This document shows positions 20,220 through 29,930 of a stretch of 35,242 nucleotides of DNA, one piece after another. The number at the start of each line of letters is the position of its first letter. Positions within the stretch are counted from its first letter, which is position 1. Both the position numbers and the translations under genes were made by a program. The notes beneath the pieces are model-generated. The model saw only the letters and a list, made by a program, of their open reading frames with translations, did not search any database and was not told where the DNA came from. This DNA comes from Balneolaceae bacterium. Lineage in GTDB: Bacteria > Bacteroidota > Rhodothermia > Balneolales > Balneolaceae. The DNA is taken from the NCBI GenBank assembly GCA_007131725.1, contig SLPZ01000062.1, positions 1 to 35,242 of the forward strand. Direction: 5' to 3'.

Positions 20220-20651
20220 TTAGAAAGTGAAGTATCTTACTCCTTCTCTCTTCATATACTGTGCAACTTCCGGAGGGCTTGCAACCCTAACACCCTCTAT
20301 CAAATCTGATTCTTCCACATCTCGATTTGGAAGATAGATTCCACATACTTCAACTTGCACACCCTGATTCAGTAAATTCTGCATAAATTGTTTTGGCGAC
20401 CGGCCTGCGGGTTCAAATTCAACGGATTCTTTATCTGCAACAGCGAGGTCTCCGGCATGGCTGCAAAGTAAAATTCTCACCGGTACATCCTGGTTGAATG
20501 ACTGAGTGGCCAGAACCATTGCCATCATTTGAGTTTCTGCATCATCCGATGTAATCACTACAAAAAGTTCATCGGCTGAACCAGTAGCAGACAGTGGCAA
20601 GTTAATTAAGAGTAATAGAGCAAGTGTTGAAGTTATTCTACCTATTTTCAT
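20220..20651 (-). CDS. Periplasmic DsrE/DsrF-like sulfur-carrier family protein
   Basis: The start is the ATG at 20651 (MKIGRITS), 10 bases after the gntR stop, giving 143 residues. An upstream Met would overlap gntR. Residues 1-26 form a signal peptide (TLALLLLINLPLSATG). The body has a DsrE-like Rossmannoid pattern: DELFVVITSDDAETQMMAMVLATQ, then PVRILLCSHAGDLAV (C63), and GVQVEVCGIYLPNR (C103), ending EVAQYMKREGVRYFTF. Known of the family: persulfide or polysulfide binding and sulfur relay through a conserved Cys. C103 sits at the usual active Cys position. Co-transcription with the GntR regulator and the sulfide-oxidising genes opposite points to periplasmic sulfur handling, which is inference. 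Confidence 0.7.
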   Translation of the reverse strand: MKIGRITSTLALLLLINLPLSATGSADELFVVITSDDAETQMMAMVLATQSFNQDVPVRILLCSHAGDLAVADKESVEFEPAGRSPKQFMQNLLNQGVQVEVCGIYLPNRDVEESDLIEGVRVASPPEVAQYMKREGVRYFTF

Positions 20652-20661
20652 GATATTATTA

Positions 20662-21447
20662 TTAGTTTGATTTAAAAATGGGTACAAATTCTTTTAATGG
20701 CATTTCAGAGCTGCCTTTGTGTTCTGCAGTTCGCTCAAGAGTCATTTCATAAATAACCTTGTCATTTCTGTAATACCTTTTCTGATAATAGATCGGTTTT
20801 TCTCCAATCGTATATGATATTCTGTCTATCAAAAAAAGAGGAGTATTTTCAGACACGTTCAGTTCTTTTGCCAGTTTTTTATCCGCTGCTTCGGCCGACA
20901 TTCTGTAGCATCCCTTTACAACCGGTATTTCGTATTTGTTTTCGAGAATATCAAAAATTGTGGTTTCTGAAAGATCATTTTCGTTTAAAAGCTGGCCATA
21001 TAAAATAGGAAGCCAGGTGCTGTCAAACGCAACCGGTTCACCGTTGCCGTAACGCACCCTGTCTATCTGAACTACTTTCGTGCCTTCTTCAATCATCAGC
21101 CGGTTTGCCAGCCATGCAGGCGCATCTACCGATGTGAACAACTTAACTTCCGATGAAGCATCCAGGCCGGCCTTAGCCATATCCTCATTAAAATCCGTCA
21201 GGCGGATCAGGTTATGCGATGTTCTCTCATCGCTGACAAAAGAACCCAGCCCCTGGCATCGATAAATGATGGCATCACTTTCCAGAGATTGCAAAGCCCG
21301 GCGAATGGTCACCCGGCTGACATCAAATTTTTTTGCAAGCTCATTTTCTGAGGGGAGTTTCTCTTCCGGCTTATAATTTCCTTCTTCTATCTGCTTACGC
21401 AGCCAATCCGATATTTGTGTATGTCTTGGTATTCCTTCTTTTAGCAT
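20662..21447 (-). CDS. GntR family regulator, HutC type with UTRA domain
   Basis: Starting at the ATG at 21447 (MLKEGIPRHTQISDWL) gives 261 residues. The longer frame adds 19 unlikely residues and would cover the operator region. The winged helix (about 5-73) shows KLPSENELAKKFDVSRVTIRRALQ and GLGSF, typical of GntR. The UTRA effector domain spans about 85-250, with VVQIDRVRYGNGEPVAFDSTWLP and PLFLIDRISYTIGEKPIYYQ. Only two Cys occur, C64 in the wing and C180 in the UTRA domain. It is divergent from sqr and followed by the DsrE-like gene. The neighbouring palindromes at 21505-21522 and 22910-22927 fit the HutC-type GT-N-AC pattern. The effector is unknown; a sulfur species is plausible from context. 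Confidence 0.9.
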   Translation of the reverse strand: MLKEGIPRHTQISDWLRKQIEEGNYKPEEKLPSENELAKKFDVSRVTIRRALQSLESDAIIYRCQGLGSFVSDERTSHNLIRLTDFNEDMAKAGLDASSEVKLFTSVDAPAWLANRLMIEEGTKVVQIDRVRYGNGEPVAFDSTWLPILYGQLLNENDLSETTIFDILENKYEIPVVKGCYRMSAEAADKKLAKELNVSENTPLFLIDRISYTIGEKPIYYQKRYYRNDKVIYEMTLERTAEHKGSSEMPLKEFVPIFKSN

Positions 21448-21466
21448 GATATTGATATTTAATTTT

Positions 21467-21487
21467 GTTGCACACAAGGTATGCAAC
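21467..21487. promoter_or_regulatory. Inverted repeat GTTGCA-N9-TGCAAC upstream of gntR
   Basis: GTTGCA (21467-21472) and TGCAAC (21482-21487) form a perfect 6-bp inverted repeat 20 bases from the gntR start, where the leftward promoter should be. It differs from the sqr/yeeE palindrome. It may be an autoregulatory site or a leader hairpin. Confidence 0.35.
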
Positions 21488-21504
21488 TTTTTTCTAAACA
21501 TCAA

Positions 21505-21536
21505 TACTTGTTACTACATGTATTTTATGTTATCTT
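21505..21536 (+). promoter_or_regulatory. sqr promoter with HutC-type operator
   Basis: The palindrome TACTTGT-TACT-ACATGTA (21505-21522, one mismatch from perfect) contains a -35-like TTGTTA (21508-21513). After 17 bases comes a -10-like TATCTT (21531-21536). TATCTTTC at 21531-21538 is also close to the Bacteroidota TAnnTTTG box. The sqr ATG is 15 bases further on. The same palindrome recurs before the yeeE-like gene. Confidence 0.6.
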
Positions 21537-21551
21537 TCTGAAAAACAAAAC

Positions 21552-22820
21552 ATGCAACAAATGGAAAAATTACACACAAAACTTGGCAAAGATGTTGATT
21601 CAAAAAAGATTAATCCGTTTACGGCTCACCATAAATTCCTGATTGTTGGAGGCGGAACGGCGGGTATCACAGTTGCAGCGCAGTTAATAAAAAAACTGAA
21701 AAAAACTGATGTTGCCATCATTGAGCCTTCCGAAGTTCATTATTATCAGCCGATGTGGACGTTTAATGGTGCCGGAGTATTGAACAAAGAAAAGTCTCAA
21801 CGGCTGATGAAAAATGTGATGCCGAAAAATGCTGTTTGGATCAAAGACCGGGTCACCGAATTTGAGCCTGAAAGAAATGTAGTGGTTACTGCAAGCGGTG
21901 ATTTTTACTCTTACGAATATTTGATTGTTGCTCCGGGTATTCAAATAGACTGGGATGCAATTCCCGGGCTTGCTGAGAATATTGGCTCTAAAGGAATTTG
22001 CAGCATTTATTGCTACCGCCATATTGATTATGTAAATGAATGTATCCAAAATATGAATGGTGGAACTGCACTGTTTACTCAGCCAAATACCAAATTTAAA
22101 TGTGGCGGCGCCCCTCAGAAAATTATGTATCTCTCTTCCGATATCTGGAAAAAAAAGGGAATTTTGGACAAGATTGATGTTCAATTTACATCAGCAGGTT
22201 CTGTAATATTTGGTGTAAAAGAAGTGGCAGAAGCTCTGGGGCCTGTTGTAGACCGCTATAATGTTGATGTGAAACTTCTGCATAATTTGAAGGCAATAAA
22301 AGCCGATGAAAAAATTGCTGTTTATGAAATTCTAAAAGATGGGAAGCCGGTGGATGAGGTTGAAATTAAGTACGACATGCTGCACGTAACACCTCCGCAG
22401 AGTTCACCTGATTTCATTAAACATAGTCCGCTGTCGGATGCAGAGGGCTGGGTTGATGTGGATAAGCACACACTTCAGCACAATAAATACCAGAATATAT
22501 TTTCCCTGGGCGATGCCGGCAGCACGCCGAACGCCAAAACGGGAGCATCCGTCAGAAAACAGTCAAAAGTAGTTACGGGCAATATTATCTCACTGCTGAA
22601 AACAGGCAAGCTCGATTCGAGCCTATCATACGACGGTTACGGATCATGCCCGCTTATTACAGGTTTCGGGAAACTGATACTTGCTGAATTCGATTATGAT
22701 AAAAAGATCACACCCTCTCTTCCTATTAATCAGATGAAGGAGAGAGCGTCAATGTATTACATGAAAAAAGACTTGCTTCCGCTGATGTATTGGCACGGAA
22801 TGCTTAAAGGAAGAGCTTAA
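21552..22820 (+). CDS. sqr: Sulfide:quinone oxidoreductase, type II (mitochondrial-like)
   Basis: The 422-residue flavoprotein oxidises sulfide to a persulfide and passes electrons to quinone. The FAD dinucleotide-binding motif FLIVGGGTAGITVAAQL is at 29-45. The type II block IEPSEVHYYQPMWTFNGAG follows, as in human SQOR. Redox Cys are C184 in FKCGGAPQKIMYLS and C366 in GSCPLITGFGKLILAEFDY. NIFSLGDAGSTPNAKTGAS marks the second FAD motif. The C-terminal amphipathic region ERASMYYMKKDLLPLMYWHG probably binds the membrane. Met4 is an alternative start. It is divergent from gntR, with a palindromic operator between, and precedes YeeE/YedE and persulfide dioxygenase genes, which fits sulfide detoxification or use. 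Confidence 0.92.
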   Translation: MQQMEKLHTKLGKDVDSKKINPFTAHHKFLIVGGGTAGITVAAQLIKKLKKTDVAIIEPSEVHYYQPMWTFNGAGVLNKEKSQRLMKNVMPKNAVWIKDRVTEFEPERNVVVTASGDFYSYEYLIVAPGIQIDWDAIPGLAENIGSKGICSIYCYRHIDYVNECIQNMNGGTALFTQPNTKFKCGGAPQKIMYLSSDIWKKKGILDKIDVQFTSAGSVIFGVKEVAEALGPVVDRYNVDVKLLHNLKAIKADEKIAVYEILKDGKPVDEVEIKYDMLHVTPPQSSPDFIKHSPLSDAEGWVDVDKHTLQHNKYQNIFSLGDAGSTPNAKTGASVRKQSKVVTGNIISLLKTGKLDSSLSYDGYGSCPLITGFGKLILAEFDYDKKITPSLPINQMKERASMYYMKKDLLPLMYWHGMLKGRA

Positions 22821-22909
22821 ACTGATGATCTATTCATTTAAAATAACACCAGACGGTGGTTCTATCCGACTGATATTTATAAAAATATTCCAATAAAAAA
22901 ATTTTAGTA

Positions 22910-22946
22910 TACTTGTATTGACAAGTAGTTACATTTTGCTTAAATT
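22910..22946 (+). promoter_or_regulatory. yeeE operon promoter with HutC-type operator
   Basis: The perfect palindrome TACTTGT-ATTG-ACAAGTA (22910-22927) overlaps a consensus -35 TTGACA (22918-22923). TAAATT (22941-22946) follows after exactly 17 bases. The ATG of the first YeeE-like gene is at 22983. It matches the palindrome at the sqr promoter in 13 of 14 arm bases, so repression by one protein is likely. Confidence 0.65.
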
Positions 22947-22982
22947 AGAATCAGAAACAGTTAACAAAAATACAAAACAAAC

Positions 22983-23546
22983 ATGTTAGACCTTTTATAT
23001 CAACCCTGGCCCTGGTATGTGGCCGGCCCTATTATTGGACTTATCGTACCGCTATTGCTGATAATGGGCGGTAAAATGTTTGGCGTTTCTGCAAACCTGC
23101 GCCACATTTGTGCCTCCTGCAATTTCGCAAACGTTGAATTTTTTAACTATGACTGGAAGACAGCCGGTAAATGGAATCTGACTTTTGTAGTCGGATCGAT
23201 TATCGGCGGATTTCTTGCTGGTTCGGTTTTTGCCAACCCGGAGCCGATTCAGCTTGCAAGCTCTACCATTGCTGAGCTTCAGGCTCTCGGCATCCAGGAT
23301 TTTAACGGCCTCGTCCCTGACGACCTGTTCACATGGAGTGCACTGGGAACCGGTACAGGATTAATCGTACTTGTAATTGGCGGTTTTCTTGTCGGATTCG
23401 GAGCACGTTATGCCGGCGGCTGTACATCCGGCCATGCAATCTCCGGACTCTCTGATTTACAGCTTGCATCACTCATTGCCGTAATCGGCTTCTTTATCGG
23501 AGGCTTAATTATGACCTGGTTCATCTATCCAATCATTTTATCATAA
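22983..23546 (+). CDS. YeeE/YedE family membrane protein, first half-transporter
   Basis: The 187-residue membrane protein has helices at about 12-34, 66-86, 122-142 and 162-184. Conserved Cys are C43 and C46 (HICASCNF) and C147 in the family signature ARYAGGCTSGHAISG. YeeE/YedE proteins include the thiosulfate importer TsuA, where conserved Cys line the path. Here the family is split into two adjacent genes, and the product of the next gene supplies the other half (GACPGP motif). It starts the operon behind the TTGACA promoter and palindrome. The likely role is uptake or release of thiosulfate or another reduced sulfur species, inferred from family and context. Confidence 0.9.
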   Translation: MLDLLYQPWPWYVAGPIIGLIVPLLLIMGGKMFGVSANLRHICASCNFANVEFFNYDWKTAGKWNLTFVVGSIIGGFLAGSVFANPEPIQLASSTIAELQALGIQDFNGLVPDDLFTWSALGTGTGLIVLVIGGFLVGFGARYAGGCTSGHAISGLSDLQLASLIAVIGFFIGGLIMTWFIYPIILS

Positions 23547-23565: not shown

Positions 23566-23991
23566 ATGAAATTTTCAGAATATCTTAAATACTTACTTAT
23601 CGGAACGTTCTTCGGATTTGTTCTGGTAAAATCAGAAGTGGTATCCTGGTTCAGAATCCAGGAGATGTTTCGCTTTGATGCTTTTCACATGTACGGAATC
23701 ATCGGAATGGCCATTATTGTAGGCCTTATTTCCGTGCAGATCATCAAAAAAAGAAACGTAAAAGACACACAGGGAAATCCCATAACCATTCCGCCAAAAG
23801 ATGCATCACAGGTTACAAGATACGTTGTGGGCGGCAGCATTTTTGGCCTCGGATGGGCACTTCTGGGAGCATGCCCCGGCCCGATGTTTGCACTTTTGGG
23901 AAGCGGATTAACCATCATGCTGATTCCCATAGCAGCCGCTCTTGTGGGAACGTACACCTATGGCATCTTAAGAGACAGGTTGCCGCATTAA
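23566..23991 (+). CDS. YeeE/YedE family (DUF6691-like) membrane protein, second half-transporter
   Basis: The 141-residue protein has helices at about 9-27, 40-61, 86-103 and 112-132. The signature GWALLGACPGPMFALLGSG carries C103, equivalent to the second Cys motif of full-length YeeE/YedE. It begins 19 bases after the first half-gene, so the two are co-transcribed and probably assemble as one transporter. An inverted-repeat element separates it from the persulfide dioxygenase fusion downstream. The sulfur substrate is inferred from neighbours. The ORF is intact and of normal size for this split arrangement. Confidence 0.88.
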   Translation: MKFSEYLKYLLIGTFFGFVLVKSEVVSWFRIQEMFRFDAFHMYGIIGMAIIVGLISVQIIKKRNVKDTQGNPITIPPKDASQVTRYVVGGSIFGLGWALLGACPGPMFALLGSGLTIMLIPIAAALVGTYTYGILRDRLPH

Positions 23992-24011: not shown

Positions 24012-24153
24012 GTCCCCTCTTTAGAGGGGATTTAGGGGTGTGTTCGTGTGGCAAATGAGCCTGGTCTTAAGGCAAATTTAGATCAAAGCTCAAACAGACA
24101 CACCCCTGGTGATTCGCTAAACGCTTTATCACCTGTCCCCTCTCAAGAGGGGA
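24012..24153. repeat. 142-bp element with terminal inverted repeats inside the sulfur operon
   Basis: The left end GTCCCCTCTTTAGAGGGGA (24012-24030) is itself palindromic and is mirrored by GTCCCCTCTCAAGAGGGGA at 24135-24153. Internal GGGGTGTGT (24034-24042) pairs with ACACACCCC (24098-24106). It lies between the second YeeE-like gene and the persulfide dioxygenase gene. The frame of the latter is open through part of the element from a GTG at 24048, which is a false N-terminal extension. The element resembles a small non-autonomous insertion and could form a strong hairpin in the mRNA. Confidence 0.75.
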
Positions 24154-24203: not shown

Positions 24204-25616
24204 ATGTATTTTAAACAATTCTTTGACGACAAATTAGCACAATACGCATATTTAATCGGCTGCCAGGCTAATGGCACTGCCGTAGTAATAGACCCAATGC
24301 GGGACATTGAACAGTACATCGACGCAGCAGCAAAAGAAAATTTAACGATTGTTGCAGCAGCCGACACTCACATCCACGCTGACTACATCTCCGGCCTCCG
24401 TGAGTTTGCAGAAAAAGGAGTGAAAGTTTACGCCTCTGATGAAGGGGATAAAGACTGGAAATATGAGTGGCTGATCGACAGCGATTACGACTATGAGCTG
24501 ATGACAGACGGCGATGAATTCAAAATCGGCAACATAACGGTAAAAGCCTGGCACACACCCGGCCACACACCCGAACACCTCACATTTTTAGTAACCGATG
24601 GTGCTGCAGCCAATGAACCAATGGGAATGGCAACCGGCGACTTTGTATTTGTAGGTGACGTGGGCCGCCCGGATCTGCTGGAATCTGCCGCCGGACAGGA
24701 AAATGTAATGGAACCCTCTGCGAGAACCCTTTTCAAAACCGTTGAAGCCTTCAAAAAAATGCCGGAATACATGCAGATTTGGCCCGGACACGGCGCCGGA
24801 AGTGCCTGTGGAAAAGCATTGGGTGCCATACCGAAAACAACCGTTGGGTACGAGCTCAAATATAATAATTCATTGAAATCGGCTTCTTCAGAAGATAATT
24901 TTGTGAAGTTTATTCTGGAGGGCCAGCCCGAACCGCCTCTCTATTTCGCCAGGATGAAGAGAGACAACAAAATAGGGCCTGCAATAATCGGCGGGCTGCC
25001 AAAAGCCAACAGAATGACCGTTAATGAAATTGGCAAAGCAGCTAAGAAGGAAGGCGCCGTAATTCTGGATACACGCGAAAGAAACGAGTATGCAGCAGGC
25101 CATATCCCTGGCTCACTGCTCTCTCCGCTCAACAAGCAGTTCAATACCGTGGCAGGGTCGTACATCACCGAAGATGAAGAGATCTACATGGTAGTAGAAG
25201 AGCACAGGGTTCAGGAAGCTATCCGCGACCTTTACAGAATCGGCCTCGACAACGTTGCCGGTTACGTAACTCCCAAAGACCTGCAGATGTACAAAGATCA
25301 GGGCGGTGAGATCGACACTCTCGAAACAACCGACTTCAGCGTAGCAGATAATCTGAAAGAGAACGAAGCCATTCTTGATGTAAGAAAAGCTTCCGAATTC
25401 AGCGAATTTCACATCAAAGGAGCACTGAATTACGCTCATACAAGATTGCTGCCTAACAAAGAAGAACTTCCAAGAGACAAGAAGTTCTACGTTCATTGTC
25501 AATCCGGAGGCCGTTCTGCTGTAGCTGCAGCACTCCTGAAAAGAGACGGCTTTGATGTAGCCCTGATAGAAGATGAAATCGAAAATTATAAAAGCAAGAA
25601 AGCACAGACAGTTTAA
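24204..25616 (+). CDS. CstB-like persulfide dioxygenase with two rhodanese domains
   Basis: Starting at MYFKQFFDDKLAQYAYLIG (ATG 24204) gives 470 residues. The metallo-beta-lactamase domain (about 1-240) has DTHIHADYISG, WHTPGHTPEHLTFLV, GDVGRPDL and WPGHGAGSACG, the ETHE1 persulfide dioxygenase pattern with a single iron site. A first rhodanese domain (about 275-365) has VVEEHR where the active Cys should be, so it is a pseudo-rhodanese. The second (about 370-465) has YVHCQSGGRS with catalytic C432. This order equals staphylococcal CstB, which turns persulfides into thiosulfate. It is third in the operon after the YeeE/YedE pair, consistent with handling the product of SQR. The repeat upstream makes longer starts unreliable. 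Confidence 0.92.
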   Translation: MYFKQFFDDKLAQYAYLIGCQANGTAVVIDPMRDIEQYIDAAAKENLTIVAAADTHIHADYISGLREFAEKGVKVYASDEGDKDWKYEWLIDSDYDYELMTDGDEFKIGNITVKAWHTPGHTPEHLTFLVTDGAAANEPMGMATGDFVFVGDVGRPDLLESAAGQENVMEPSARTLFKTVEAFKKMPEYMQIWPGHGAGSACGKALGAIPKTTVGYELKYNNSLKSASSEDNFVKFILEGQPEPPLYFARMKRDNKIGPAIIGGLPKANRMTVNEIGKAAKKEGAVILDTRERNEYAAGHIPGSLLSPLNKQFNTVAGSYITEDEEIYMVVEEHRVQEAIRDLYRIGLDNVAGYVTPKDLQMYKDQGGEIDTLETTDFSVADNLKENEAILDVRKASEFSEFHIKGALNYAHTRLLPNKEELPRDKKFYVHCQSGGRSAVAAALLKRDGFDVALIEDEIENYKSKKAQTV

Positions 25617-25933: not shown

Positions 25934-27649
25934 ATGAAAGGTTTACAGCATTATATCAATCAATATTTTCCCCTTTTCAATTCGTTGAAAAATTACGATA
26001 AAACCATTTTCAGGGGAGATCTGATTGCCGGTGTAACTGTGGGAATTATGCTCATTCCGCAGGGAATGGCCTATGCGTTAATTGCCGGGCTGCCTCCCGA
26101 ATACGGGCTGTATGCTGCATTAGTGCCCCTCATCATTTATGCCTTTATGGGAACTTCGCGCCATCTTGCCGTGGGGCCTGTGGCTCTGGTTGCGCTGCTT
26201 GTGGCATCGGCTGTTTCTCCGCTTGCAGAAAGTCCTGAAGAATATATTGCTCTCAGTATTCTGCTTGCATTGATGGTTGGTGTAATCCAGCTTATTTTCG
26301 GATTATTGAAAATGGGTTTTCTTGTAAATCTGCTTTCACACCCGGTACTTTCAGGATTTGTCTCTGCAGCGGCTATTGTCATTGGCTTCAGCCAGCTTCA
26401 CCACCTTCTTGGTGTTGATTCAGTTACGGGAGCGCTGCATGAGGTATTGTATGGAATCGCCATGCAGGCTGGCCAAATCCACCTCTGGACTCTGGCAGTT
26501 GGATTGGCAGGCATCGCGCTGATCATCTTCGTTAAGAAAAAAGTACCGGCCATTCCCGGACCTGTTCTGGCAGTGGCTGCAGGCATTCTTTTGATCTTTT
26601 TTTCCGGCCTTGACCGCGCCGGTGTTTCAATAGTAGGTGAGCTTTCTGCCGGAATTCCTTCTTTCAAAATGCCCGTATTAAGTTGGGGAACTCTTACAAC
26701 TCTCTTCCCGATGGCACTGGCCATTGCGCTGGTTGCCTTCATGGAAGCTATTGCAGTAGCCAAAGCCATTCAGCAAAAAACAAAAACGTACCAGGTTGAT
26801 CCCAACCAAGAGCTGGTTGCCCTTGGTACAGCCAACATCGGGGGCTCCTTTTTCCAGGCTTTCCCGATAACCGGCAGTTTTTCACGTACGGCTGTAAACT
26901 TCAGTACCGGAGGCAGCACCGGTTTATCATCAATTTTTAGTGCAATCACCGTTGCACTCACACTACTGCTTTTAACCCCGGTTTTTTATTATTTGCCCAC
27001 AGCAATTCTGGCAGCCATAATTATGGTTGCTGTTTATGGGCTGATTGAGTTTGATGAAATCAAACGGCTATGGAAACTGGGCCATTACGACAGGTACATG
27101 CTGCTTGCCACATTTGCCGGAACACTATTTTTGGGTATCAAAGAAGGAATTTTTCTTGGAGTGACGTTGTCGGTCATCATGCTGCTGTATCGTTCGGCGA
27201 GGCCCAACAATGTTGTTCTGGGGCGCATACCGGGCACAAATAACTATCGTAATATCAAACGATATGAAACAGAAAAACAGCCCGAATTCCTCATTTTCCG
27301 GTTTGATGCACCGCTGCATTTTGCCAATGCCGAGTACTTCAAAAATCAGGTAAACGTCCTTATTCACACCAATCCGGAAGCTTCCTGCTTAATTCTTGAT
27401 TTAAACGGAGTAAATGAAATTGATTCTACCGGTTTGGACCAGTTGATTGATGTAATTGAAACCTTGCAGGGAGAAGGGATAGATGTTCAGCTTGCCGAAG
27501 TTAAAGCGCCGGTAAGAGATATGATAAAAAGCGGAACTGATAAAGATAAACAGTGGGATTTTTATATGACCATCGAAGACGCTGTCATTGCTGCAACAGA
27601 TCAAAAAGAAGTGAAGGGTGAAGATTACAAAATTCATACCGACAATTGA
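25934..27649 (+). CDS. SulP family anion permease with STAS domain
   Basis: The 571-residue inner-membrane protein opens with the SulP hallmark DLIAGVTVGIMLIPQGMAYALIAGLPPEYGLYA within residues 28-62 and has about a dozen hydrophobic segments up to about 430. A C-terminal STAS domain (about 450-560) has LNGVNEIDSTGLDQL, with S498 at the usual anti-sigma-antagonist Ser position. SulP proteins carry sulfate, bicarbonate or other anions, often with Na+. Its place between the persulfide dioxygenase and an SLC13 permease argues for sulfate or sulfite, as inference. Length is normal for the family. An upstream hairpin and repeat may separate it from the yeeE operon, while the SLC13 gene follows by 41 bases. 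Confidence 0.92.
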   Translation: MKGLQHYINQYFPLFNSLKNYDKTIFRGDLIAGVTVGIMLIPQGMAYALIAGLPPEYGLYAALVPLIIYAFMGTSRHLAVGPVALVALLVASAVSPLAESPEEYIALSILLALMVGVIQLIFGLLKMGFLVNLLSHPVLSGFVSAAAIVIGFSQLHHLLGVDSVTGALHEVLYGIAMQAGQIHLWTLAVGLAGIALIIFVKKKVPAIPGPVLAVAAGILLIFFSGLDRAGVSIVGELSAGIPSFKMPVLSWGTLTTLFPMALAIALVAFMEAIAVAKAIQQKTKTYQVDPNQELVALGTANIGGSFFQAFPITGSFSRTAVNFSTGGSTGLSSIFSAITVALTLLLLTPVFYYLPTAILAAIIMVAVYGLIEFDEIKRLWKLGHYDRYMLLATFAGTLFLGIKEGIFLGVTLSVIMLLYRSARPNNVVLGRIPGTNNYRNIKRYETEKQPEFLIFRFDAPLHFANAEYFKNQVNVLIHTNPEASCLILDLNGVNEIDSTGLDQLIDVIETLQGEGIDVQLAEVKAPVRDMIKSGTDKDKQWDFYMTIEDAVIAATDQKEVKGEDYKIHTDN

Positions 27650-27690: not shown

Positions 27691-29484
27691 ATGGATCCAC
27701 AAATACTGATCGTGCTGGTAATAATGGGATTTACCATCTTCATGCTGGTTACGGAAATTGTGCGGATCGATGTGACCGCCATTTTAACCATGCTGGCCCT
27801 GAGCTGGACCGGCATCCTTACCAGCAGTGAGGCTCTGTCCGGATTTTCAAGTAATGCCGTTGTAGCAATGATCGCAGTGATGATTCTGGGTGAAGGTGTT
27901 GCCAGGACCGGGATGATGTCTCGCTTTTCGAAATGGCTTTTGAAACGGATTGGCACCAATAAAAACAGCGTTTTGGGTTCCTTAACACTTTCTGTTGGTA
28001 CGCTTTCCGGGGTGATTCAGAACATCGGGGCAGCCGCACTTTTTTTGCCGAGCATAATCGACATTGCACGGCGGATCAAAGTTTCAGCATCCGTGCTGAT
28101 TATGCCGATCGGGTTTGCAGCCATTATCGGTGGAACGCTGACCATGGTTGGATCCGGGCACCTCATCCTAACAAACGATCTGCTTGAGAGTGCCAATCTT
28201 GAACCATACGGACTGTTTGCCGTAACCCCGGTGGGTGTGGCGCTATTAGTAGCTGCAATGCTTTTTTTCCTCTTTTTCGGTAAAATATTTTTACCGCAGG
28301 GAGAAAAAGGCGGCAAACTTGAAAAAACCGAACAGGAGAAAGTAATTGATGCCTTCAACCTGAAAAAAGACATCCGCTTTTTCCGCATTCCGAAAGGAAG
28401 TCCGCTGGCCGGTAAAAGCATTGAGGAGTCTGGCATATGGACAACTTACGACATCAACATACTGGCGCTTTCGCACGACAAGCACGTAGATTATGCACCG
28501 TGGCGCGAAACTACGTTCGATGATAGCCAGATTATGGCCCTCTATGGTGAAAAAGAGAAAATCAACCGGTACGTTGATGATTATCAGCTTGAGCCTGCCG
28601 AATTTCATCCGATGTTTGAAGGGCTTGAAGATCCGGAAGAATCCGGTTTTGTGGAAGTGATAGTACCGCCAAGGTCAGAACTTGTAGGGCAGAGTATCCG
28701 CCAATTTTCCATGCGTAAACGCTATGCCGTGGAGCCAGTCATGCTTTTCAGTAAAGGTCAGCGGGTTGAGGGTGATTTTTCAGATCACGAAATTGAACCG
28801 GGTGATACATTCATCATTTACGGGCCGTGGGATCACATCAAAAATCTGGAAAGTACAGATCCCTTTGTTGTTGCCACACCTTTTTCGTTTGAATCAAAAG
28901 ACCCGTCCAAAACCTGGCAGGCTGCGGGAAGTTTCCTGCTTGCTATAGTTCTGGCAATGAGCGGTTTTTCCATTTCAATTTCATTCCTCACCGGTGCTAT
29001 TGTCATGGTTCTGTCTAAAGTGATGACCATTCAGGAGGCTTACAAAGCTATTGAATGGAAAGTGGTATTCTTACTGGTTGGACTCATTCCTCTCGGCGTG
29101 GCCATGCAAAACAGCGGAACGGCAGAGTTTCTGGCAGAAAATGTGATGAATGTGGTTGAGGACGGGCATATATTATTGCTGCTCTTTACCGTTGGAATTT
29201 TGTCCACAGTGTTTTCGCTGGTTATGTCGAATGTGGGAGCTGTTGTGGTTCTGGCACCGCTTGTGGTAAGCATTGGTGCGATTGCAGGAGTTGACCCAAG
29301 GCCGCTGGTTCTGCTGGCAGCCGTTAATGCAGGGAACTCTTTTGTGCTGCCCACTCACCAGGTTAACGCCCTGATGATGACCGCCGGCGGATATAAAACC
29401 CGCGACTATTTTAAAGCGGGCGGCGGTATGACGATCGTATTTTTAGTAGTATCTGTTCTGTTTTTCTACTATGCATTCTTTTGA
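27691..29484 (+). CDS. SLC13/DASS family permease with two TrkA-C (RCK_C) domains
   Basis: The 597-residue protein has a membrane half-repeat at about 1-200 (IRIDVTAILTMLALSWTGIL and GVIQNIGAAALFLPSI). Two cytosolic TrkA-C domains follow, at about 227-300 (RFFRIPKGSPLAGKSIEESG) and 318-395 (VEVIVPPRSELVGQSI). The second membrane half (about 405-597) ends with NSFVLPTHQVNALMMTAGGY. This SLC13-TrkA_C arrangement is widespread in putative Na+/sulfate symporters. It lies 41 bases after sulP and 41 bases before a rhodanese gene, all intact and in one direction, so it is likely co-transcribed. The substrate is probably a divalent sulfur oxyanion, inferred from context. Direction of transport is unknown. 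Confidence 0.9.
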   Translation: MDPQILIVLVIMGFTIFMLVTEIVRIDVTAILTMLALSWTGILTSSEALSGFSSNAVVAMIAVMILGEGVARTGMMSRFSKWLLKRIGTNKNSVLGSLTLSVGTLSGVIQNIGAAALFLPSIIDIARRIKVSASVLIMPIGFAAIIGGTLTMVGSGHLILTNDLLESANLEPYGLFAVTPVGVALLVAAMLFFLFFGKIFLPQGEKGGKLEKTEQEKVIDAFNLKKDIRFFRIPKGSPLAGKSIEESGIWTTYDINILALSHDKHVDYAPWRETTFDDSQIMALYGEKEKINRYVDDYQLEPAEFHPMFEGLEDPEESGFVEVIVPPRSELVGQSIRQFSMRKRYAVEPVMLFSKGQRVEGDFSDHEIEPGDTFIIYGPWDHIKNLESTDPFVVATPFSFESKDPSKTWQAAGSFLLAIVLAMSGFSISISFLTGAIVMVLSKVMTIQEAYKAIEWKVVFLLVGLIPLGVAMQNSGTAEFLAENVMNVVEDGHILLLLFTVGILSTVFSLVMSNVGAVVVLAPLVVSIGAIAGVDPRPLVLLAAVNAGNSFVLPTHQVNALMMTAGGYKTRDYFKAGGGMTIVFLVVSVLFFYYAFF

Positions 29485-29525: not shown

Positions 29526-29930
29526 ATGTTTAATCATTTTAACCAAATTACATTCGTAACATTAACTCTCTTAATTTCTTCATTAATCATGTTCAGTTTA
29601 TTTTCAAAATCTACAGAAGTAGACATCAATTCAGACGATTTTAAAAAAATGCTCGATAAAGACCGGGGCGTAATTATCGATGTCCGGACAAAAAATGAGT
29701 ATGACCAGGGACACCTGAAACTTACAGATGCTCAATACGATTTTTTGAATGGAGATTTTCAGAAGCAGATCGACTCTTTAGATAAAGATCAAACCTACTA
29801 TCTCTATTGCCGGTCTGGCAACAGAAGCGGACAGGCTGCCCGTTTGATGCAAAAAGAAGGTTTTAAAAACGTCTATAACATCGGTGGATTTGAAGATCTT
29901 GCCGGTGCAGGTTTTGAAACCAATAAATAG
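29526..29930 (+). CDS. Membrane-anchored rhodanese-like sulfurtransferase
   Basis: The 134-residue protein has an N-terminal hydrophobic segment (about 9-27, FVTLTLLISSLIMFSLF) that acts as signal anchor, so the rhodanese domain probably faces the periplasm. The single rhodanese domain shows GVIIDVRTKNEYDQGHL and the active loop YYLYCRSGNRSGQAA with C95. It carries sulfane sulfur between donors and acceptors such as thiosulfate or cyanide. It ends the sulfur gene run; its stop codon directly abuts the repeat element at 29931. The start is the first ATG. No Shine-Dalgarno is seen. Partner candidates are the periplasmic DsrE-like protein and the persulfide dioxygenase fusion, as inference. Confidence 0.9.
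   Translation: MFNHFNQITFVTLTLLISSLIMFSLFSKSTEVDINSDDFKKMLDKDRGVIIDVRTKNEYDQGHLKLTDAQYDFLNGDFQKQIDSLDKDQTYYLYCRSGNRSGQAARLMQKEGFKNVYNIGGFEDLAGAGFETNK

Follow-up and report, generated by a model that had tools for sequence, protein, structure and literature searches.

Which regulator controls the sulfide/persulfide gene island of a Balneolaceae bacterium (order Balneolales), and what signal does it read? The window analyzed here, a stretch of 35,242 nucleotides (GenBank assembly GCA_007131725.1, contig SLPZ01000062.1, positions 1 to 35,242), contains a gene for a GntR/UTRA regulator (gntR), the divergent sulfide:quinone oxidoreductase-like gene sqr, and a yeeE operon that includes a gene for a persulfide dioxygenase-rhodanese type protein (yeeE-pdo; Table 1). 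A preliminary description of this DNA had proposed that the GntR protein represses the island through a palindromic operator common to the sqr and yeeE promoters. Tests on the sequences of this and related genomes support the proposal, and we consider it likely that a sulfide-pathway GntR/UTRA repressor acts here through TACWTGT-N4-ACAWGTA.

The two palindromes on which the proposal was built (operators 1 and 2) are both present and stand far above chance. When up to two mismatches are allowed, the window gives four strand-matches, all of them from these two operators, where 0.50 are expected, and none of 100 shuffles reaches four. The bacterium's own genome has the strict form of the palindrome, TACWTGTNNNNACAWGTA, at three places and the reversed control at none; the third exact copy lies on another contig (C329:2193-2210), 24-41 bp upstream of the ATG start codon of a DUF302 gene. 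Only near-exact sites are meaningful, because a two-mismatch scan of the same genome gave 22 + 20 matches, fewer than the 58 + 65 of the reversed control, and this loose scan was discarded as noise. A site with one mismatch near a glycosyltransferase-like open reading frame (C304), absent from the strict sites of the genus, was also put down to chance.

Both operators lie over promoter boxes. The 17-base spacing between −35 and −10 boxes that had been described for the two sites is correct (TTGTTA-N17-TATCTT at 21508 and TTGACA-N17-TAAATT at 22918), and the palindromes overlap the −35 TTG. TTG-N20-TAnnTTTG fits the promoter type of Bacteroidota-like bacteria, and in this group TTG-N20-TAnnTTT(G) is the better reading of the same boxes, since it contains the letters that are conspicuous in orthologous promoters. 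Across 16 orthologous sqr-gntR intergenic regions, the sqr side is marked by TTG and TAnnTT columns 20 bases apart, and the gntR side carries the mirror of TTG-N20-TA, with invariant CAA and TA columns; the information content is 1.93 bits per column in the operator arms, 1.01 in the spacer, 0.97 in the left flank, and 0.51 in the right flank. In the yeeE promoters of 20 orthologs, the TTG lies in the operator spacer (ATTGACAAGTA), and a TATnTT(T) box stands out 14 bp after the operator. Promoter occlusion is likely, given that the −33 TTG falls within the palindrome at sqr and yeeE and directly beside it at gntR. A palindromic operator that overlaps its target promoters is a trait of the HutC (UTRA) subfamily, and the window has it at the level of sequence.

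Among 28 genomes of the genus, the strict palindrome was found at 32 places, compared with 5 for the reversed control. Sixteen of these are on the gntR side of the divergent promoter region that gntR shares with its neighbor, 5 are before yeeE1, 10 before a DUF302 gene, and 1 before a peroxiredoxin gene. The palindrome is thus not frequent at unrelated loci, since 31 of the 32 places stand before gntR, sqr, yeeE1, or DUF302. The peroxiredoxin encoded behind the last site (L132; G042:C2:510603-510620) has a 1-Cys C-terminal domain; this arrangement was seen in one genus genome only and may mark an extra member of the regulon.

The motif also follows the regulator gene across the order. A gntR match at E 1e-30 is present in 86 of 128 genomes, and the pattern WACWTGTNNNNACAAGTW in 75 of them: 69 of the 86 with gntR versus 6 of the 42 without (Fisher p = 8e-13), compared with 17 of 86 versus 10 of 42 for the reversed control of this pattern (p = 0.65). 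Three of the six motif-bearing genomes that lack gntR share one sequence, and in the genome examined (G001) the site lies at the start of a coding frame (L128). The other three (G047, G071, and G073) are assemblies that are 92, 78, and 71% complete. Matches in trans that fall within coding frames or overlap them (L126, L127, and L129-L131 included) were regarded as chance.

Conservation at the gntR promoter was scored in 86 of 90 loci. These were fetched for 91 gntR matches (L006-L095; a partial match in G084 was left out), some genomes giving two loci, and a 31% paralog (L089) and three loci with truncated gntR (L093-L095) were excluded. The best site within 420 bp upstream of gntR matches at least 12 of 14 positions in 73 loci, 11 in 12 loci, and 8 in 1, whereas 0.17% of block shuffles reach 12 or more and 3.7% reach 11 or more. 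In the sole failure (L017), yeeE1 is cut at its 5' end and stands 23 bp from gntR, suggesting that the region was deleted or misassembled.

The site is kept although the gene opposite gntR changes. In 149 gntR loci from the order and from relatives outside it, the nearest divergent gene is sqr in 15, yeeE-pdo in 52, a DUF302-TolC-MFP operon in 18, a PRK08275 gene in 44, and another gene in 16; in the remaining 4, yeeE-pdo is convergent. In a gntR tree built from 10 of the 44 PRK08275 rows and all 105 other labeled rows (ten truncated, paralogous, or repeated loci having been excluded before labeling), sqr was gained or lost beside gntR at least seven times, on the branches starred in that tree. 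Where sqr is inserted between gntR and yeeE, the gntR-side site is kept in all such loci of the upstream comparison, and a site of at least 12/14 is present in all 14 loci that span the sqr-yeeE gap; the sequence of a fifteenth (L027) does not reach it.

Sites at the yeeE1 promoter likewise go together with the presence of gntR. The yeeE1 gene is present in 95 of the 128 genomes, 22 of which lack gntR. Promoters were compared in 43 rows (identity above 55%, match from the start of the protein, at least 120 bp available, 220 bp scanned), and 35 of these have a site of at least 12/14. Beside gntR the number is 33 of 41, with 11/14 in 7 more; L043, whose site lies beyond 220 bp, was counted as a miss. 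In contrast, a site above 10/14 was found in none of 20 yeeE1 promoters from genomes without gntR, one of which has only 47 bp of upstream sequence; G080 and G073, the latter with a site and a gntR fragment beside it, were left out of this control of 22 genomes. The motif is therefore kept in orthologous promoters on both the gntR and the yeeE1 side.

In family f5, which has yeeE1 promoters without gntR, a different AT-rich palindrome near CTTGACATATAGTTATTTATATATGTATATTAT was seen by eye at about −83 (L269-L273 and L276-L279), which suggests that another regulator may have taken over the yeeE operon there. In G108 (L303), an ArsR-like gene, identified by eye, follows the dioxygenase gene, and that genome's own promoter is without a palindrome like CTTGACATATAGTTATTTATATATGTATATTAT.

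The DUF302 promoters (orthologs of the C329 type) give a similar result, with a site in 12 of 16 cases with gntR versus 2 of 13 without (p = 0.0025); this comparison has 30 rows, of which G045, with only 14 bp upstream, was not counted, and a 31st match (G125) came without a locus. The operator over the sqr and yeeE promoters stands as proposed, and the regulon is wider than was thought: it takes in DUF302, a DUF302-TolC-MFP efflux operon in other genera, and probably gntR-dsrE itself, and a third promoter, the leftward one of gntR, abuts operator 1.

Outside the order, gntR stands tail to tail with the yeeE-pdo operon in four loci. In the three from Gemmatimonadota, the yeeE1 promoters have sites of 11, 11, and 12/14 at −34 to −50 (0, 1, and 0 of 500 shuffles are as high), and the gntR promoters have none. 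Relatives from Proteobacteria (34-38% identity) branch off as a clade of their own (support 100/100), and in 44 of their 46 loci (L180-L225) gntR faces a PRK08275 flavoprotein cluster. They differ from the window's regulator in clade, identity, and operon, but have similar sites (CTTGT-N4-ACAAG in L181-L225); a palindrome of this TGT-N4-ACA type is found upstream of gntR in 32 of the 46 loci versus 1% in shuffles. Because such distant relatives share TGT-N4-ACA, the core appears to be old and HutC-like, and what is particular to the group studied here is the regulon, not the operator core. No relative was found among viral contigs. As a separate observation, the PRK08275 clusters examined in L181-L225 contain ferredoxin and HEAT-repeat genes, followed by ABC transporter-like genes in L206, L222, and L185 (by eye).

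Several observations weigh against assigning this regulator and its operator to sulfide. The operator core does not specify sulfide, because the PRK08275-operon relatives carry similar sites, and no sulfur gene was seen in the stretches examined from eleven Rhodothermota/Bacteroidota relatives. The fourth convergent locus (L175) has no site (9/14; 79 of 500 shuffles are as high). Within the order, sqr was found at E 1e-90 in only 26 of the 128 genomes, so the signal is not necessarily H2S itself. Of 13 yeeE1 promoters located apart from gntR, only 2 have a strong site, 3 have a degenerate one (11/14, TACTTGTATTGACAGG-like), and 8 have none; all four DUF302 genes of genus g22 are without a site even though gntR is present, and these are all four misses among the DUF302 promoters with gntR. 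On the basis of these two results, the regulon seems to shrink or move in some genera. Finally, sites stand before DUF302 in G047 and G071, in which no gntR was found and whose assemblies are fragmented (470 and 380 contigs), and before yeeE1 in G073, which has no gntR match but has a gntR fragment alongside (L144).

Two side observations concern these genomes. In G073, a perfect TACTTGTACGTACAAGTA (L143; G073:C39:1575-1592) precedes a different GntR/UTRA gene, 27% identical to that of the window, followed by a deoC-like gene (by eye). Six of the Rhodothermota/Bacteroidota loci (L164, L167-L170, and L178) are without yeeE/pdo in the stretch examined, and several of them have a moeA-like neighbor and then a glucose-6-phosphate isomerase-like gene (by eye).

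The gntR product belongs to the GntR superfamily and, as had been described, to its HutC (UTRA) subfamily: it scores 116.8 bits with UTRA PF07702 (cut-off 23.8) and 70.8 bits with GntR PF00392 (cut-off 27). It reaches the cut-off of no named UTRA equivalog among the 25 of 30 NCBIfam families listed, scoring 134.6 bits with the HutC model TIGR02018 (cut-off 220) and at best, with NF041547, 147 against 275 for the others (LSA1692, PhnF, TreR, and Rv0792c among them). An AlphaFold model (pLDDT 86.5, pTM 0.64, no ligand) matches the folds of YvoA and DasR in Foldseek. YvoA/NagR of Bacillus subtilis (PDB 2wv0, 4u0v, and 4wwc), also a GntR + UTRA protein, is the best match both in sequence and in structure (E 8e-20, 31% identity, TM 0.55, root-mean-square deviation 18.8), the large deviation indicating that the domains are probably set differently. 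YvoA/NagR is known for amino-sugar genes, and a title reports its crystallization with glucosamine-6-phosphate; here, sulfur genes stand in their place. The effector could not be named from the pocket of the AlphaFold model. In an alignment of 33 of the 86 loci, Arg130 and Arg132 are invariant and align with Arg133 and Arg135 of YvoA, which we take to have a role in effector binding.

Taken together, operator conservation, co-occurrence with gntR, overlap with promoter boxes, and regulon content are the data on which we base a model of how the island may be controlled; half-site reading by a dimer, binding, repression rather than activation, and the nature of the effector are what we infer from them. 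The gntR product would be a dimeric HutC-subfamily repressor, with one protomer on each TACWTGT half of TACWTGT-N4-ACAWGTA. Bound at operators 1 and 2, it would lie over the −33 TTG of two promoters, those of sqr and of yeeE-persulfide dioxygenase, as well as over the edge of the gntR promoter, and so, judging from the layout, keep RNA polymerase off; at the third site, on another contig, it would repress the DUF302 gene. The effector would be an anionic sulfur metabolite that the pathway produces or uses up (low-molecular-weight persulfide, thiosulfate, or sulfite); by binding non-covalently in the UTRA pocket it would release the repressor, such that exposure to sulfide would induce oxidation and export. 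The effector is probably one of these three compounds downstream of H2S, because yeeE-pdo, rather than sqr, is the commonest target. We propose tentatively, as a possibility that we would not yet call probable, that a cysteine-independent UTRA-pocket sensor of a sulfane-sulfur or sulfur-oxyanion metabolite controls the sulfide/persulfide regulon in much of Balneolales and some Gemmatimonadota, along with DUF302 genes and a DUF302-linked efflux operon. The operator predicts that DUF302 proteins, the DUF302-TolC-MFP operon, and persulfide dioxygenase share one regulon, which, if true, would connect the handling of reactive sulfur with an efflux pump and with DUF302, a domain whose function is unknown.

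The same repressor and operator could instead sense through persulfidation of cysteines, as CstR or SqrR do. The protein has only two cysteines, Cys64 and Cys180, as the preliminary description reported; Cys64 lies in the strand that leads into the wing of the DNA-binding domain and Cys180 in the UTRA domain, and it is general knowledge that known sulfide sensors use cysteines (the regulators are listed in PMC8148161). However, in an alignment of 87 GntR proteins, which includes the 31% paralog and a wrongly cut, blank row (L085; neither cysteine in another alignment), Cys64 is kept in 60 (Lys in 21), Cys180 in 44, and neither in 26. Twelve proteins have a single cysteine, at differing places (Cys64 in L033, Cys180 in L068, column 38 in L038 and L049). 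No cysteine column is invariant, so the family lacks the conserved reactive cysteine of cysteine-based sulfide sensors. Cysteine is wholly absent only from the rows of the paralog L089 and the mis-cut L085, every correctly cut ortholog having one or more, and the clade with Lys64 has cysteines elsewhere, in columns with 24 and 21 of 87, leaving room for a thiol that drifts. The suggestion that these residues react with persulfide is weakened by their lack of conservation; on this ground we rejected the cysteine switch, which is quite unlikely, and regard a pocket-bound effector as likelier. We expect a bound anion in the UTRA pocket, because Arg130 and Arg132 are invariant and the cysteines are not.

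Other alternatives keep the pocket or the palindrome and change its meaning. The repressor might answer an organosulfur nutrient (e.g. a sulfonate) or another small acid, with the sulfide genes handling the released sulfite or sulfide; this would agree with the general knowledge that UTRA domains usually bind catabolic metabolites, and with the proteobacterial sister clade, where the PRK08275/ferredoxin/HEAT cluster is followed in L206 and L222 by nitrate/sulfonate-type ABC transporter-like genes (by eye). We consider it unlikely, since the strict operator in the genus covers no organosulfur catabolic gene, its targets being gntR/sqr, yeeE-pdo, DUF302, and one peroxiredoxin. That the protein is HutC itself, in an incidental operon context, is hardly credible. 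HutC is of the same subfamily, represses by promoter overlap, and has the consensus TGTA-N2-TACA (PMC12977541), sharing the TGT-N4-ACA core; however, the window's protein scores below the HutC cut-off, its regulon is different, and the spacers of the window sites (TACT and ATTG) do not keep the inner A-N2-T. The hutH gene, the only hut gene sought, is on contig C151, where there is no site within two mismatches, and this, with the low score, led us to reject HutC identity. It is very unlikely that the palindrome belongs to another regulator and that gntR is a mere neighbor. The sites in G047 and G071 would favor this, but those assemblies are fragmented, the motif strongly co-occurs with gntR, the site is found upstream of gntR in 73 of 86 loci (85 including weaker ones) whatever the divergent gene, and relatives in other phyla have the same core.

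Compared with known systems, the proposed repressor belongs to a different family. SqrR/BigR are ArsR-family regulators that sense with two cysteines. According to PMC8148161, they repress sqr and dioxygenase genes until sulfide is present, and the known regulators of bacterial sulfide oxidation named there (CstR, SqrR/BigR, FisR, and CsoR) are all of protein families other than GntR/UTRA. The CstR-cst regulon of Staphylococcus, described in the same paper, is of the same kind (sqr, persulfide dioxygenase, and sulfurtransferase under one repressor), but CstR is CsoR-like, whereas the window's regulator lies outside PF02583; no PF02583 (CsoR/CstR-family) protein was found in the 28 genus genomes. 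ArsR genes stand beside sqr in cyanobacteria (PMC5061849), and others have reported DUF302 in the neighborhood of sqr or sox genes (PMC5061849 and PMC5037610). Searches of the open-access literature, with subscription journals mostly outside their scope, gave no match for UTRA with persulfide or for yeeE with gntR and sulfide, and no paper on RND efflux with DUF302. In the excerpts retrieved for gntR with persulfide dioxygenase, gntR is a sugar or gluconate gene affected by sulfide; those for the HutC family with sulfur concern only HutC itself; and four terms for the BigR operator are absent from the accessible part of PMC5823870. A UTRA repressor for a sulfide/persulfide regulon thus appears to be without precedent in the open-access papers searched. 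If our proposal is true, it would differ in sensor type from the known regulators, and one would have to ask which signal is read by a bacterium without CstR.

Table 1. Regulatory sites and genes of the sulfide/persulfide island (positions in the window)
Feature	Position	Strand	Description
dsrE	20220..20651	-	DsrE-like, PF02635 31.7 bits; start 10 bp after gntR stop
gntR	20662..21447	-	261-residue GntR/UTRA (HutC-subfamily) regulator, ATG at 21447
gntR promoter	21474..21504	-	TTG = complement of 21502-21504, N20, TACCTTGT = complement of 21474-21481; abuts operator 1
Operator 1	21505..21522	no strand	TACTTGT-TACT-ACATGTA; common to divergent sqr and gntR promoters
sqr promoter	21508..21538	+	TTG 21508-21510, N20, TATCTTTC 21531-21538; TTG within operator 1
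sqr	21552..22820	+	sulfide:quinone oxidoreductase-like flavoprotein; nearest NCBIfam NF049943, 222 bits, below cut-off 525
Operator 2	22910..22927	no strand	TACTTGT-ATTG-ACAAGTA; over yeeE promoter
yeeE promoter	22918..22948	+	TTG 22918-22920 in operator 2 spacer, N20, TAAATTAG 22941-22948
yeeE1	22983..23546	+	YeeE/YedE sulfur-transport half protein; PF04143
yeeE2	23566..23991	+	second YeeE/YedE half (DUF6691); PF20398, PF04143
persulfide dioxygenase-rhodanese type protein (pdo)	24204..25616	+	metallo-beta-lactamase and two rhodanese stretches; PF00753, PF00581; name inferred from architecture
SulP-family sulfate permease	25934..27649	+	TIGR00815 over cut-off
CitMHS/DASS-type anion transporter with TrkA_C domains	27691..29484	+	PF03600, PF02080
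single-domain rhodanese	29526..29930	+	PF00581

The dsrE gene adjoins gntR in many of the 30 loci examined and is probably co-transcribed with it. The DUF302-TolC-MFP genes that stand opposite gntR in other genera include an adaptor that scores over the cut-off of TIGR01730; the label "RND" for this efflux operon is provisional, as it derives from the adaptor. In the gap between yeeE2 and the dioxygenase gene (24012-24153), two GTCCCCTCTnnAGAGGGGA palindromes flank an inverted AGGGGTGTG/CACACCCCT stretch. Copies of this element are scattered through the genome (51 + 55 strand-matches at one mismatch, most places being counted on both strands, and 0 for the reversed control); they form a REP-like repeat family and are often paired, about 120-210 bp apart.

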